A stretch of 36,066 nt of DNA, taken from positions 1-36,066 of the forward strand of contig JAAFHV010000071.1 of assembly GCA_013297655.1 (NCBI GenBank), written 5' to 3'. The notes beneath the pieces were generated by a model, which had not been told where the DNA came from, did no database searches, and saw only the letters and a list, made by a program, of their open reading frames with translations. Positions 9,983 through 31,796 of this stretch are shown piece by piece (the first letter of the stretch is position 1; each line of letters opens with the position of its first letter). Position numbers and translations under genes: made by a program. Origin of the DNA: Myxococcales bacterium (GTDB lineage: Bacteria; Myxococcota_A; Polyangia; Polyangiales; Polyangiaceae).

Positions 9983-10109
9983 GTGATGTGGTTCTGAGAT
10001 GTCGGCCGGGGGCTCGACGGGTCGTAAGTCGTATCGGGCTGTTCCGGCGCGCGTGCAGCTCGATACGACCACCACGAGCAACCGTCGTCGTTCGTGCGGG
10101 GGGCGGCGG

Positions 10110-10322
10110 AACGAGAAGCTCGCGGTCGTCGCTCGACCGGTCAACACACGCGAAGGACCACGGGGCGTAGCGCGCGTGGGCCCTTGCAGCGCTGCGGTCT
10201 ACGCGTCGAGCTTCCCGTTGCTGTCACTCCTTTCGGTTTCCCGGTTGGACGACCCGCGCTGCTCGTTCGGATGCGCCTTCGCGTGTGTTGACCGGTCGAG
10301 CGACGACCGCGAGCTTCTCGTT
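10110..10322. repeat. Perfect 47-base inverted repeat with 119-base spacer
   Basis: The left arm 10110-10156 and right arm 10276-10322 are exact reverse complements over 47 bases. Outside the arms similarity continues imperfectly as GC-rich sequence for about 10 bases. The spacer 10157-10275 has no recognisable gene. A transcript would fold into a very long stem. Candidate explanations are a MITE-like element or an attenuating RNA structure; no flanking target duplication was identified. Confidence 0.85.
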
Positions 10323-10452
10323 GCGGCCGCCCCGTGACAGCGCAGTCCTGCTTCATGTGAAGCGGTTCGGCGACGGCCGCTCTCTCGTGTTCACAAAAAA
10401 AGAGCCCGCGAGGCGATCTACCGACTCGCGCGCCTATGTCCTGGCTTCACGC

Positions 10453-10584
10453 GGATTTCGTGCGGTGAGCAAGCTGCAGTCGGCGCGACGACGACGGATA
10501 GTCTTCTATCTTAGGAGGAGCAACGACGCGTCGCAGGCACGCCGCTAAACGCGCGAAAGCCGACGGGATTCAGCCTGTTCGGTG
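10453..10584. repeat. Dispersed intergenic repeat, copy 1 (degenerate)
   Basis: This matches 28224-28400 with the same order of blocks: GGATTTCGTGCGG, CAAGCTGC, GACGGATAGTCTTC, TATC/CATC-TTAGGAGGAGCA, GCACGCCGCTAAACGCGCG, then ATTCA-CCTGTTCGGTG. It lacks about 34 bases present in copy 2, a loss bounded by GACGG direct repeats, and the closing helix seen in copy 2 is broken here by substitutions. It is therefore probably a decayed copy. Orientation of any transcript is unknown. Confidence 0.75.
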
Positions 10585-10712
10585 ACCTAGCCTGCGGGTC
10601 TCACCGCGGGCTCTTCCGGCCCCGCGCGGCCCCCGTCGCACGTCGCGCGGCGGCGGATCGCGGGATCGCGGATTCGGCTGCGTCGCGCGCGCCCGTCCCG
10701 TATCCTCGGGGC

Positions 10713-12140: not shown

Positions 12141-12258
12141 GCTGCATTTCGAGCTCGCGCTCCGTACGCGTCGCTTCGCGCTCCCGGGTTCGGAGGGGCG
12201 CCACGACGCAGACCCTCGGACCGTTGGCTTCGTTCGTTCACGAGCCACGTGCCGATGA

Positions 12259-12476
12259 AATTCGCCAGCGCTGGCGTTTCCATTCGCCAGCGTTGGCGTT
12301 CTTGCCCACCACGACCGACCGTGTTTCGTGCCGCGCGCGACACGAATTCGCCAGCGCTGGCGTTTCCATTCGCCAGCGTTGGCGTTTTTTGCCCACCACG
12401 ACCGACCGTGTTTCGTGCCGCGCGCGACACGAATTCGCCAGCGCTGGCGTTTCCATTCGCCAGCGTTGGCGTTTTT
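12259..12476. repeat. Tandem hairpin array (86/87-base units, six palindromes)
   Basis: Two full units (12259-12344 and 12345-12431) and a half unit (12432-12476). Each unit has a perfect 14-base palindrome CGCCAGCGCTGGCG, an 8-base spacer, and a variant CGCCAGCGTTGGCG followed by a T-rich run, then about 43 bases containing CGTGT...ACACG. Palindromes begin at 12263, 12285, 12349, 12371, 12436 and 12458. The variant hairpins plus T-runs look like serial intrinsic terminators on the plus strand between the convergent sodB and rdgB genes. REP-like origin is also possible. The rest of 12085-12490 holds no gene. Confidence 0.85.
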
Positions 12477-12490
12477 CCGGCGGGCGCGCT

Positions 12491-13138
12491 TCAGCCCGCG
12501 ATTTGCGCGGCGACGGTGTCGCGGCCGATGAGCGCCTTCTCGAGGACGAGGCGGAGCGCCTGGAACGCGCGTCCGCGATGAGAGACCGCGTTCTTGGCGG
12601 CGTCGTCGAGCTCGGCCATCGTCTTGTCGTGGCCCTCGACGAGGAAGAGCGGGTCGTAGCCGAAGCCACCCGAGCCGCGCGGGGAGACCAGGATTCGACC
12701 CTCGCACGCCCCTTCGACCAAGTGCGGCTCGAACGACGCGAGCGGATCGACGAGCGCGAGCACACAGCGAAAGCGCGCGCGAAACACGGCCTGTTCGTCC
12801 GACAGGGCAGCGAGCGCCCCGAGGAGCGCGGCGTTGTTCTCGCCGTCGGTCGCGCGGGCGGACGCGTATCGCGCCGAGCGCACACCGGGCGCGCCGCCGA
12901 GCGCGTCGACCTCGAGGCCGGAGTCGTCGGCGAGGGTGAGCATCATCGTCGCGCGGGCGATCGCGACCGCCTTCTTCGTCGCGTTCTCAGCGAACGTCTC
13001 GCCGTCCTCGACGACCGTAATCTTGCGGGTCAGGACGTCGTCGCTGGAGAGCACTTCGACGGGGAGGGTCGCGAGCATGGCGCGGAGCTCGGCGAGCTTG
13101 CCGACGTTCTGGGTCGCGACGACGAGGGCGTGCCTCAC
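12491..13138 (-). CDS. rdgB: Non-canonical purine NTP pyrophosphatase (RdgB/HAM1)
   Basis: 215 residues from a GTG at 13138. Ham1 motifs in order: ATQNVGKLAELRAML (8-22), DDSGLEVDALGGAPGVRSARYA, GFGYDPLF and SHRGRAF. The enzyme hydrolyses ITP, dITP and XTP to monophosphates, clearing deaminated purines from the nucleotide pool (EC 3.6.1.66). Its start shares GTGA with the stop of rph, so the two are translationally coupled; rph-rdgB is a widespread gene pair. The 3' end faces the hairpin array and sodB. Confidence 0.95.
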   Translation of the reverse strand: MRHALVVATQNVGKLAELRAMLATLPVEVLSSDDVLTRKITVVEDGETFAENATKKAVAIARATMMLTLADDSGLEVDALGGAPGVRSARYASARATDGENNAALLGALAALSDEQAVFRARFRCVLALVDPLASFEPHLVEGACEGRILVSPRGSGGFGYDPLFLVEGHDKTMAELDDAAKNAVSHRGRAFQALRLVLEKALIGRDTVAAQIAG

Positions 13139-26659: not shown

Positions 26660-28081
<1,422 letters not shown>

Positions 28082-28166: not shown

Positions 28167-28223
28167 TCGTTCTCCGCCGCGAGATTGGCAGTCTCGTTCA
28201 AGAGCGCCGACCAGAAGGGCCGA

Positions 28224-28400
28224 GGATTTCGTGCGGTTCGCAAGCTGCGTCACCGCGTGCGCGCGCCGCCGACGGATAGTCTTCCATCTTAGGAGGAGCA
28301 CCGACGCGTCCGAGGCACGCCGCTAAACGCGCGAAAGCCGACGGCGCTACAGGTCCGCAAGTCCCTGGCGAGGGACGGGATTCAACCTGTTCGGTGCTCT
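28224..28400. ncRNA. Dispersed intergenic repeat, copy 2: candidate structured RNA
   Basis: This copy is intact relative to 10453-10584. Predicted pairs: CGCA-AGC-TGCG in a 5' hairpin flanked by GCGGT and ACCGC; closing helix GAGCACCGA (28296-28304) with TCGGTGCTC (28391-28399); inside it arm A, CGCCG (28318-28322) with CGGCG (28342-28346), and arm B, ACAGGT (28349-28354) with ACCTGT (28385-28390) capped by GTCCCT/AGGGAC (28361-28366, 28371-28376). Together they form a three-way junction. It lies between convergent argG and tamA, ending 3 bases from the tamA stop. Strand is undecided; a mobile non-coding element is the alternative. The rest of 28082-28403 holds the argG terminator and one palindrome. 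Confidence 0.45.
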
Positions 28401-28403
28401 AAA

Positions 28404-31400
28404 TTAGAAGAGACCGAGCGAAAAGCTGAACGCGAACGGCTCCTCGTAGGCACGTTTGCGCGTCACGTTGTAGCCAAAATCGAGGGCGATCGGCGCGATC
28501 GGGGTCTGGATGCGAAGGCCGGTGCCGGCCGCCGCGCGAATGGGGAAAGAGCCCTGATCGAACGGATAGCTCAAGGTGCGCCAGAGGTTGCCGATGTCGG
28601 CGAAGACGACCGTCTCGAGCGGCCCGGCGATGGGAATGCGGACCTCGAAACGTTGCACCGCAGAGAGGTTGCCGCCGCGAATGGGCGCGGTCGCGAGCGT
28701 GAAGCACGGCACCGCGCGAGCCGGATCGTCGCAGTTGGTCCCCGCGTCGCGCTCGAGGCGGTCGAGGTCGTCCTGGGGGATGAATGACTGCAGGTACCAC
28801 CCGCGCATCTCCTGACCGCCGAGGAAAAAGAGGCGGTCCGGGTACGTCGTGGAGTTCTCGGTGAGCTGCCCGATGATCCCGAGGCTCGTCGACGACGCGA
28901 AGCGGCTGCGGAACGGGAGCTTGAAGTAGAAGCTGAAGCGGTTGAAAAACTTGAGGAAGTGGCTCTCGTCGAACTGGTCCGAGGTCGCGCCGAGGGGGAA
29001 AGCGTCGACGTGCTCGAGGGTCGAGGTGAGCAGCGTGCCTCGCGAAGCGTCGAGCGGGTTGTCGCGGCGATCCCACGTGAACGTGCCGCGCTGGGCGACG
29101 ACGAAGGTCTCGCCATCGGGCAGGTTCAAGATGCGCTGCTGCGCCGACTTCAGGACCGGGTCCGAGTCGAGCGAGGCGAGGTACGCGGTGAGGTTCGAGG
29201 CGGCGAGCACGCGCAGGTTGTTGAACTCGAAGCTCTGCCCGAACGTGAGCGTGACGTCGCGCTGCGGGCGCACCGTGATGCTGGGCGTACCGGCGATCTT
29301 GGTGATGTAGTAGTCGCGGCGCAGATCGTGGGTGCCGACGCCGTCGATCCCGAACGCGACGAGCGGGCCGAGGCCGATCTCCGGGAACTGAATGCCGGCC
29401 GTGACACGAGACCCGACCCGCGCCTCGATCGGCAGGTTCTCGTAGTTTTGTCGCGCGGTGCTGTCCAAGATGAACGCGGTCGGGAGGTACGAGAGCTGGA
29501 GCAGCACGCTCACGCCGATCGCGCGCCCGAACAGGTTCTTGTGGCCGTACTCCACCGCGAAGCGCACACCTTCACCGGTAGAGACGCCGGGCGCGAACTC
29601 GAGTGAGTGGCGCGGCCGCTCCACCACCGTGATGATGACGTTCTTGTTCTTCTGCGGGACGTTCGGATCTTCGAGCGCGACGACCACGCTCGAAAACACG
29701 TTCAGCGTCGCGATGCGCTCTTGGGACTTTCGAACTTCGTCCGAGCCGTAGGGCTTGCCTACCTCGAGCGCGATCCGCTTCTCGATCGTCTGCGGCACCG
29801 TATAGACGTTGCCGCGGATCTTGATGCCCGAGACGATGACCTGCTCCTGCTCGTTCACGCGGAAACGAACGTGGCTCCGCGAGCGATCTTGGGAGAGCTC
29901 GATCGAGAAGCTCGCCTCCGCGTAGGCGTAACCCTTGCGCTGGTAGAGCTCGACGATGCGACGCCGAGCCTCGTCGAGCTTGGCAGAGCTCACCGGACCG
30001 GCCATGTCGAGCGCGGCGGCGCGGGCGAGCTCGCGGGTGGTGAAGGCGCGCACGCCAGTGAACGAGACGTCGTACATGCGGCTCTGCGGGCCGAGGCGGA
30101 TCGGCATTCGCAGCACGACGTAGGGCGCGCATTCCACGCCTTTTCCAGGCTCCGGCGTGCACGAGGCGCGCGGATCGGGCGCCGCGAGCGGTAGCGGCAA
30201 CCCCTGCGGATCGAGGTTGCAGCTCGTCGCCGCTTCGTCGACCACCTCGGGGATGCACGTGCCGGGCGGCGAGTGGCGCTTGCAATGCGGGCGCACCACC
30301 TGGAGCGGGCCCACCTCGGCAGAGAGGAAGCCCTCCGCACGGTAGAGCTCCTGCACGTGCTTCATCGCGCGCTCGTAGGTGTCCGGAAAGTACGTCGTGT
30401 GGGGCGCGATGTCGGTCGGCGTGACGCGCGTGCCGTGCCGGTTCGGCGAGATGAGCGCGTCGAGACCGGAAGGCCGCGGAGAGAGCACCAGGTCTTGGCC
30501 GGGGAGCTCCTCCTCGAGGTAGCTGTCGATCTCGGCGCCGAGGCCGGCGGCGGTCTTGGGGGCGCTCTCCGCGAGGCGAAGGTCGTCGACTTTGAGGCAC
30601 GGGTACTCGCGCGATACGACCGCGACGCGCTCGTTCTCGCGGATCTTGAACGCGAGGAACACGAGCGGGTCTTCGAGCTGCCCACGCAGGGTGGACGTGA
30701 CCTCCACGTCGAGATAGCCACGCTTCCGGTAGAACTCGGCGAGCTTCTGGACGAGGTGCCCGGTCGACAGATCCGGATCGGAGTCGAGCGCGAGCGCACC
30801 CGAGAGCGCCGTCGCGTCGTAGTGATCGTTGCCCTCGAACCGCGCCTCGAACTTCGGGCCCGGGTCCATGCGCACGCGGAGCACGACCACCGCTCCGACG
30901 GCCACGAGATCGCTCGACACGGTCGCGCGATGGAAGCCCGCCGCGCGCAGCTTGGTCTCGAGCTGGGTGTTCGCGGCGAGGATCGTCGCTTCGTCCGCGC
31001 GGTCCTTCTCGCGGACGAGGTACTGCTCGGTGATGCGAGCGAAATCCTCTTTCTTTCCGCGCGTATAGAAGAATACCTTTTTGTCGACGAGGCGCGCGGT
31101 GCCCGCCACGACGTCGACGTTGACGACGACGTGCGCGCGGTCGACGCCGGGGGCCGTCCCGATCGTGACGTTGGCGGCGGGGTAGCCGCGGCGCGAGAGC
31201 AACGCGCGCACGCGCTCCTTGTGGCGCGGGATGTCGCGGGCGACGATTTCGCCGCCCTCGGCGAGGTCGGCTTCGCGTGCGATCTCTTCGCGCGTGAACG
31301 GAGCCTCGTGAACGGTCACGTGCACCGTCTCGACGATCTTGCGCGGCGAGAGGCGCACCGTGAGCACGCTGCCACCCTTGCCGTCGTCCGAGGCGACCAC

Positions 31401-31796
31401 GACGCCGTCGGCGAACCGGCCGCTCGCGAGCGCCTCGTCGAGGTACTTTCGCGCGGCAGCAGACGAGAGCTTCTCCCCCGCGGCGGGTGGGCCGAGCTTC
31501 GGCGGTACGACGTCGGCCCAGAGCGCGTCGTCGACCGCGCTGTCGACCCGCGTGAGGGGCCTCCCGGCGAGCGCGGCGAGGGTGGCGTCGGCGCCTTCGA
31601 GGTCGGGCGCGACGGGCGGTGGCTTTACCTCCGGCGCCGGCGGGATCGGCGTGACCTTCACCGCGTCGTCCGCCCGCGACGCGCGGCTCCCGAAGACGAG
31701 CGCGGCGATCACGATCACGAAGGCGACGAGACGCCAGAGCCCCGCGCCGAGCTTCGGCGCGCGCATCGCGTCTTGGCTCGTCCGCCGGAGGCTCAT
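28404..31796 (-). CDS. tamA: Omp85-family outer-membrane assembly protein (TamA-like)
   Basis: 1130 residues. A signal sequence with a hydrophobic core at about 21-37 ends near SRADDA. From about 75 to 720 there are successive POTRA-like beta-alpha segments (for example GYPAANVTIGTAPG, RGYLDVEVTSTL, EGFLSAEVGPLQ, KGYAYAEASFSI). The beta barrel starts near 729, has the loop-6 RGW motif at Arg998 (family VRGF/Y), and ends in alternating strands terminating in FSLGLF. It is longer than E. coli TamA or BamA. A cysteine-rich insert (about 504-556) separates POTRA regions. It inserts or exports outer-membrane proteins. It lies 114 bases downstream of tamB on the same strand, which favours TamA over BamA. 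Confidence 0.9.
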   Translation of the reverse strand: MSLRRTSQDAMRAPKLGAGLWRLVAFVIVIAALVFGSRASRADDAVKVTPIPPAPEVKPPPVAPDLEGADATLAALAGRPLTRVDSAVDDALWADVVPPKLGPPAAGEKLSSAAARKYLDEALASGRFADGVVVASDDGKGGSVLTVRLSPRKIVETVHVTVHEAPFTREEIAREADLAEGGEIVARDIPRHKERVRALLSRRGYPAANVTIGTAPGVDRAHVVVNVDVVAGTARLVDKKVFFYTRGKKEDFARITEQYLVREKDRADEATILAANTQLETKLRAAGFHRATVSSDLVAVGAVVVLRVRMDPGPKFEARFEGNDHYDATALSGALALDSDPDLSTGHLVQKLAEFYRKRGYLDVEVTSTLRGQLEDPLVFLAFKIRENERVAVVSREYPCLKVDDLRLAESAPKTAAGLGAEIDSYLEEELPGQDLVLSPRPSGLDALISPNRHGTRVTPTDIAPHTTYFPDTYERAMKHVQELYRAEGFLSAEVGPLQVVRPHCKRHSPPGTCIPEVVDEAATSCNLDPQGLPLPLAAPDPRASCTPEPGKGVECAPYVVLRMPIRLGPQSRMYDVSFTGVRAFTTRELARAAALDMAGPVSSAKLDEARRRIVELYQRKGYAYAEASFSIELSQDRSRSHVRFRVNEQEQVIVSGIKIRGNVYTVPQTIEKRIALEVGKPYGSDEVRKSQERIATLNVFSSVVVALEDPNVPQKNKNVIITVVERPRHSLEFAPGVSTGEGVRFAVEYGHKNLFGRAIGVSVLLQLSYLPTAFILDSTARQNYENLPIEARVGSRVTAGIQFPEIGLGPLVAFGIDGVGTHDLRRDYYITKIAGTPSITVRPQRDVTLTFGQSFEFNNLRVLAASNLTAYLASLDSDPVLKSAQQRILNLPDGETFVVAQRGTFTWDRRDNPLDASRGTLLTSTLEHVDAFPLGATSDQFDESHFLKFFNRFSFYFKLPFRSRFASSTSLGIIGQLTENSTTYPDRLFFLGGQEMRGWYLQSFIPQDDLDRLERDAGTNCDDPARAVPCFTLATAPIRGGNLSAVQRFEVRIPIAGPLETVVFADIGNLWRTLSYPFDQGSFPIRAAAGTGLRIQTPIAPIALDFGYNVTRKRAYEEPFAFSFSLGLF

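Follow-up and report, generated by a model that had tools for sequence, protein, structure and literature searches.

A short, non-coding repeat that occurs twice in the DNA studied here belongs to a mobile family found across the Myxococcota, in which the core of a long hairpin is conserved and the ends are exchanged between lineages. The DNA is a stretch of 36,066 nucleotides from a Myxococcales bacterium (contig JAAFHV010000071.1), referred to below as the window. With a probability of roughly 70%, we read the repeat as a MITE-like, non-autonomous transposable element that carries a conserved, structured RNA core. The initial annotation had left the choice between a non-autonomous mobile element and a new non-coding RNA, and both descriptions now appear to apply at once, to a mobile element with a covarying hairpin core.

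The hairpin element in the window

The repeat was noticed as a 177-base element that shares blocks with a second stretch of the window. The two are homologous, with 28224-28400 matching 10453-10566 (85% over bases 1-121, E=1.3e-33), and both stretches lie outside clear genes. The interval was too short, omitting the left arm GAGCGCCGACCAG..., the partner of GTTCGGTGCTC. Alignment with full copies places the left boundary at 28200/28202 and the right boundary at 28401; the covariance-model match to this copy covers 28203-28361 (E=2.8e-6). The features of the two copies are as follows.

28200..28401, plus strand: complete, degenerate copy of the hairpin element, with left end AA-GAGC (TA mutated) and right end GCTC-TA, from alignment with full copies
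28202..28216, plus strand: left terminal arm GAGCGCCGACCAGAA, which pairs with the right arm on folding and is homologous to TAGAGCGCCGATCAGGTTGAA elsewhere in the family
28217..28224, plus strand: conserved internal-loop motif GGGCCGAG (family form GGACCGAG), in columns almost invariant in the alignment
28258..28273, plus strand: conserved core, 5' side, TGCGCGCGCCGCCGAC (family form AGGCGCGACGACGA), with G58, G61, and C62 invariant
28274..28288, plus strand: apical hairpin GGATAG-TCTT-CCATC
28292..28304, plus strand: conserved core, 3' side, GGAGGAGCACCGA (family form GGAGGAGCAACGA), where a one-base change gives the closing helix of the initial annotation
28344..28377, plus strand: secondary insertion of 34 nt, GCGCTACAGGTCCGCAAGTCCCTGGCGAGGGACG, which forms a hairpin of its own; copy L009, for example, lacks it, and other copies have it at several positions
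28381..28401, plus strand: right terminal arm TTCAACCTGTTCGGTGCTC plus TA; read on the minus strand, 28381-28401 is the terminal repeat with 0 mismatches
10425..10590, plus strand: second, degraded copy of the hairpin element, from a covariance-model match (E=7.5e-12)

A three-way junction with a 9-bp closing helix and a capped hairpin had been predicted from the shorter interval. That helix is formed by the right end arm and an internal GGAGCACCGA, a match that arises from a substitution in the window copy. Nearly all other copies have GGAGCAACGA at this position, and the three-way junction is therefore not a feature of the family but a peculiarity of one degenerate copy. The capped hairpin is the secondary insertion at 28344-28377, which is missing from many copies. 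The family forms a single hairpin, and a complete copy pairs end to end. When the complete window copy is folded, both ends pair with each other (z=-2.4); a typical copy of the family gives one long hairpin with a fold far above chance (z=-9.2). The copy at 10425-10590 has lost its clean left arm and folds no better than shuffled sequence (z=-0.55).

The right end of the complete copy lies 2 bp from the stop of a large minus-strand ORF (28404-31796). Upstream, a plus-strand ORF stops at 28081; from its SGGLDT start, we take it to resemble argininosuccinate synthase.

Several other repeats were seen in or near these copies. A tiny second repeat, in 34- or 27-nt forms around GTCCCTGACGAGGGAC, lies inside the hairpin element at 28344-28377 of the window and in copies L064, L096, L100, and L021. 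It is inserted at different positions and in either orientation, and in L021 it also stands alone near CTAG. Just upstream of the copy at 10425-10590 there is a 58-bp inverted repeat (10099-10333; arms 93% complementary and 119 bp apart), apparently a further palindromic element of MITE-like type. At about 12224-12500, a block RHEFASAGVSIRQRWRF... is repeated in tandem in the ORF translations, which suggests a tandem DNA repeat of roughly 90 bp.

Family size and distribution

Two copies within one window had suggested a larger family, and this expectation was borne out. The genome of the window (9.9 Mb, 546 contigs) holds 58 matches to the 177-base query. A first covariance model, built from 24 copies in this genome, gave 117 matches there, which represent roughly 80 places because many of them are one element read on both strands. 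Full copies exceed the element as it was first delimited, starting with CTAGAGCGCCGATCAGGTTGAAGGACCGAGG and finishing with GGGATTCAACCTGTTCGGTGCTCTAG, so that inverted repeats are present at both ends. The element is a single imperfect hairpin of ~160 nt (157-170 nt in most full copies), contains no gene, and is usually flanked by CTAG or CTNAG. Its end arms define sub-families, for example with the pairs CAGGTTGAA/TTCAACCTG, CAGTTCGAT/ATCGAACTG, and CCGCTTAAT/ATTAAGCGG. Two copies (L067 and L069) are identical over 158 bp at unrelated sites, and this identity points to recent movement.

Within the family Polyangiaceae, a covariance-model search identified the element in 25 of 108 genomes. A model made from 40 diverse sequences found it in 68 of 188 evenly sampled Myxococcota genomes, representing 59 of 136 genera; strict filters were used in both surveys and the counts are thus lower bounds. 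Occurrence is patchy within genera. A pattern of three core motifs, run over 84,980 species with one genome each, had almost all of its matches in assemblies assigned to Myxococcota or labelled 'deltaproteobacterial'; Sorangium cellulosum So ceGT47, Minicystis rosea, and three Anaeromyxobacter were among them. A single contig labelled Elusimicrobia (L246, JACQPH010000135.1) has a canonical copy, explained either by mis-binning of the contig or by transfer between phyla. Viruses and plasmids were considered as vehicles of spread and set aside: the exact core-motif pattern had no match in viral contigs, and one copy used as a blastn query had none in plasmids.

The family also appears to fall outside the RNA families described in Rfam. 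No Rfam covariance model matched the window, eight loci from its genome (to E=5), or twelve relatives, in line with the initial annotation, which had not recognized it as a tRNA, tmRNA, RNase P, known riboswitch, or group I/II intron. No description of the element was found in a literature search that covered few subscription papers.

Hairpin structure and covariation

In almost all lineages the predicted fold is one long, imperfect hairpin. A covariance model and a test for compensatory changes had been proposed in the initial annotation, and the outcome favors a maintained structure. For this analysis, 40 diverse sequences were aligned using MAFFT, with no fitting to structure, and the RNAalifold consensus of the same alignment was taken as the structure. 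At 40 of the 45 pairs, both sides have changed and pairing has been kept. The proportion of paired cells is 88.9%, compared with 66% for shuffled and 34-43% for slid versions, and the covariation score is 0.540, compared with 0.162+/-0.010 for shuffled and 0.08-0.12 (at most 0.123) for slid versions; since the consensus comes from the same alignment, comparison with slid versions is favorable by construction. None of 500 shuffles matched any of five measures, a control that is also inflated by related sequences, although the effect comes from very different lineages. This evidence for pairing is unusually strong. Some of the covariation could come from template-switch correction of palindromes instead of selection.

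The end arms are unrelated in sequence between lineages and are still complementary, as in AGAGCCTGAGCAGGAATC / GATTTCTGCTCAGGCTCT in one genome (G015) and CTAGAGCTCATTTCATAACCACC / GGTGGTTATGAAATGAGCTCTAG in another (G034). Invariant columns lie mostly in the core (GGACCGAG, AGGCGCGA, GAGGAGCAACGA, and CGACGGGAG), which is better conserved throughout the phylum than the ends are. Isolated C-G pairs in the core are separated by positions at which GA lies across from GA; these GA/GA positions are most likely tandem sheared G.A pairs, an established RNA motif. The arrangement of C-G pairs and GA/GA is present only on the plus-oriented strand.

Departures from Watson-Crick pairing provide a further test of which strand matters, as G-U and A-C should be equally common if only double-stranded DNA were important. 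An unrestricted count, in which consensus pairs were not singled out, gave 246 G-U and 178 A-C. With symmetric criteria applied to consensus Watson-Crick pairs in 11 groups, there were 74 columns with G-U and 37 with A-C. The excess, which is only 2:1 and is reversed in one group (SJ252), gives moderate support for selection on RNA of the plus orientation.

Mobility and exchange of ends

Evidence for transposition is clearest in So ceGT47, where matched direct (not inverted) triplets, TTA..TTA or TAA..TAA, are present at 9 of 16 copies, the rest being degraded. Copies in Anaeromyxobacter have TCA..TCA or TGA..TGA at their flanks. In the genome of the window the TA within CTAG is palindromic, so that the sites are consistent with TA duplication rather than proof of it. 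The element is shorter than 500 bp, non-coding, and bounded by terminal inverted repeats, properties by which MITEs are defined, and in So ceGT47 it also has target duplications.

So ceGT47 contains insertion sequences (ISs) of ~895 bp with the terminal inverted repeat GAGCGCCTAACAAAAC, TTA duplications in 5 of 5 cases, and the IS5-family transposase domains PF13340 and PF01609 in two overlapping frames. The ends of the hairpin elements in this species are GAGCGCCGAACAAAACC, and one right end (in L284) is identical to the IS end. Mobilization in trans by this IS5-family IS is an economical explanation that is well supported for that species. A match to an IS end had been named in the initial annotation as grounds for rejecting its proposal; such a match is present only in this relative, where it accounts for the mobility of the element and leaves the RNA signal in place. 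At L284 itself (So ceGT47 403200-404900), a CRISPR array holds a hairpin element in tandem with an IS5-family element; this IS copy has an extra insert of ~150 bp. The array was rejected as a clean empty site, its leftover spacer being 28 nt compared with 37-39 nt in the neighbors.

Searches for a partner transposase were extended to other genomes. In the genome of the window, no IS with ends matching the element and no IS5 relative was found; a partner there would be expected to carry GAGCACCGAACAG ends. The sole IS630 in this genome was excluded as partner by its different ends, GTACCTCGACACAGRGGA. A REPIN/RAYT system was likewise dismissed, as the Y1 transposase domain PF01797 is absent from this genome and was found in 5 control genomes. 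For an IS5 partner in this genome or in other relatives, a single weak match, in G011, was the only return, and this candidate was dropped. BP4.bin10 gave no IS630 transposase, and an end-pattern search of Anaeromyxobacter drafts returned only the hairpin elements themselves.

The same core occurs with different ends. In BP4.bin10 it lies between CTAGTACCTCG... ends, whose outer 11 bases are common to the IS630 of the window's genome. In two smaller genomes (G055 and G054; 4.2-4.8 Mb) of the same family as the window's genome, a longer repeat, bounded on the outside by inverted repeats ACCGCTTTC..., encloses the hairpin (L152-L167). Typical MITEs share their terminal inverted repeats with an IS (PMC10969869), whereas the pattern here is the reverse, with one core kept and several unrelated ends. 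We tentatively suggest, while thinking it somewhat less than an even chance, that the element is a mobile RNA module: a core selected throughout the phylum might repeatedly acquire the ends of DNA transposons at hand (IS5-like in Sorangium, CTAGTACCTCG elsewhere, the longer element in G055 and G054) and work with a widely conserved host factor that recognizes the tandem G.A core.

Genomic surroundings

With genes predicted by a simple gene caller, many copies start or stop within a few bases of a neighbor's stop codon, in either orientation. There is no strong bias in the orientation of insertion, which weakens the case for a specific role in cis. In these genomes CTAG rarely occurs within coding sequence and is common at stops. 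The positions at stop codons can thus be explained by the availability of CTAG together with purifying selection, and an active preference for stop codons was discounted as probably a matter of site availability.

Proposed mechanism and alternatives

In the mechanism that we propose, the DNA of the element would be mobilized in trans, in So ceGT47 by the IS5-family transposase with common ends, and inserted into CTAG or CTNAG, with duplication of 2 or 3 bp (TA/TNA). Stop codons often overlap sites of this kind, so that copies would survive just behind genes. Read-through transcription from the neighboring gene would then allow the plus-oriented strand to fold as one long hairpin. This would comprise, in order, a terminal stem that is free in sequence and complementary, the GGACCGAG/GACGGGAG internal loop, another stem of variable sequence, and the nearly invariant core AGGCGCGACGACGA / GAGGAGGAGCAACGA enclosing a small apical hairpin. 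Selection would keep the folded plus-oriented strand. The core would probably serve as the target of a widely conserved factor that binds or processes RNA; this factor would make insertions tolerable or set the fate of the adjoining mRNA, as in NEMIS/Correia of Neisseria and ERIC of enterobacteria.

Different models could explain parts of these observations. In an ordinary MITE, template-switch (quasipalindrome) correction, an established mutational process, would maintain the symmetry of long terminal inverted repeats, and the interior would be a passenger without function. Terminal inverted repeats in common with an IS5 element and TNA duplications would be expected of it, but across the phylum the interior varies less than the ends, symmetric correction would erase an asymmetric core with non-Watson-Crick GA/GA positions, and G-U exceeds A-C; we find this model improbable. 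Somewhat less improbable, and still unlikely, is movement that depends on structure, in which an enzyme acting in trans recognizes the core of the folded single strand, as hairpin DNA or RNA, and the arms drift if they stay paired. A conserved core with free complementary arms would follow from this, as would high copy number in genomes that yielded no transposase with matching ends. However, TA/TNA duplications and the match to IS5 ends are what double-strand DDE transposition typically shows, no enzyme emerged as a candidate, and the window's genome has no Y1 transposase.

Stationary host regulatory RNAs or 3'-UTR elements would account for the strong covariation and for adjacency to stop codons at many places. 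Set against them are near-identical copies at non-homologous sites in both orientations, the target duplications in So ceGT47, and the patchy occurrence within genera, and we give this explanation very little credence. A MITE-like element with a selected RNA core remains our preferred reading.

Comparison with known small repeats

ERIC, Correia/NEMIS, RUP, and CIR are known small hairpin repeats that have TA ends and duplicate their target (PMC2229807). Some repeats of this kind alter mRNA stability through RNase E, and for some, cleavage by RNase III is proposed. The ERIC/IRU/RU-1 repeats of enterobacteria resemble the present element in being short (about 127 bp), intergenic, and numerous, with TA termini, a target duplication, and a long stem-loop transcript, and an orientation-dependent effect on mRNA stability has been reported for them (PMC2229807). 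They differ in that the ends of the present element vary by lineage and its core is phylum-wide. Membership in ERIC was rejected, as blastn with words of 11 and one copy as query found no similarity in 20,395 E. coli records.

The Correia/NEMIS repeats of Neisseria are MITEs of 100-155 bp, with TA ends and RNA stem-loops for which RNase III cleavage is proposed (PMC2229807). Those repeats are defined by conserved terminal repeats and the present family by its core. The CIR repeats of Caulobacter and Brucella, at about 110 bp, share TA termini and a phylogenetically conserved RNA structure (PMC2229807), but consist of two arms joined by a linker and include a GANTC site, whereas the present element is one long hairpin. 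With IS5-family ISs and their MITEs, the hairpin element shares the ends and TNA duplication of the 895-bp IS5-family element in So ceGT47; unlike in typical MITEs, which share terminal inverted repeats with an IS (PMC10969869), its conserved structured core occurs with several unrelated ends. The anatomy is that of the known small hairpin repeats, and the difference lies in a core conserved across the phylum with exchanged ends.

Implications

The covariance model is ready for use in annotating Myxococcota genomes. Small hairpin repeats are usually taken to be decayed ends of transposons with incidental folds; here, it is the inside that a phylum keeps, not the ends. The family therefore offers a testable case of a mobile element spreading a functional RNA structure in bacteria with large genomes.
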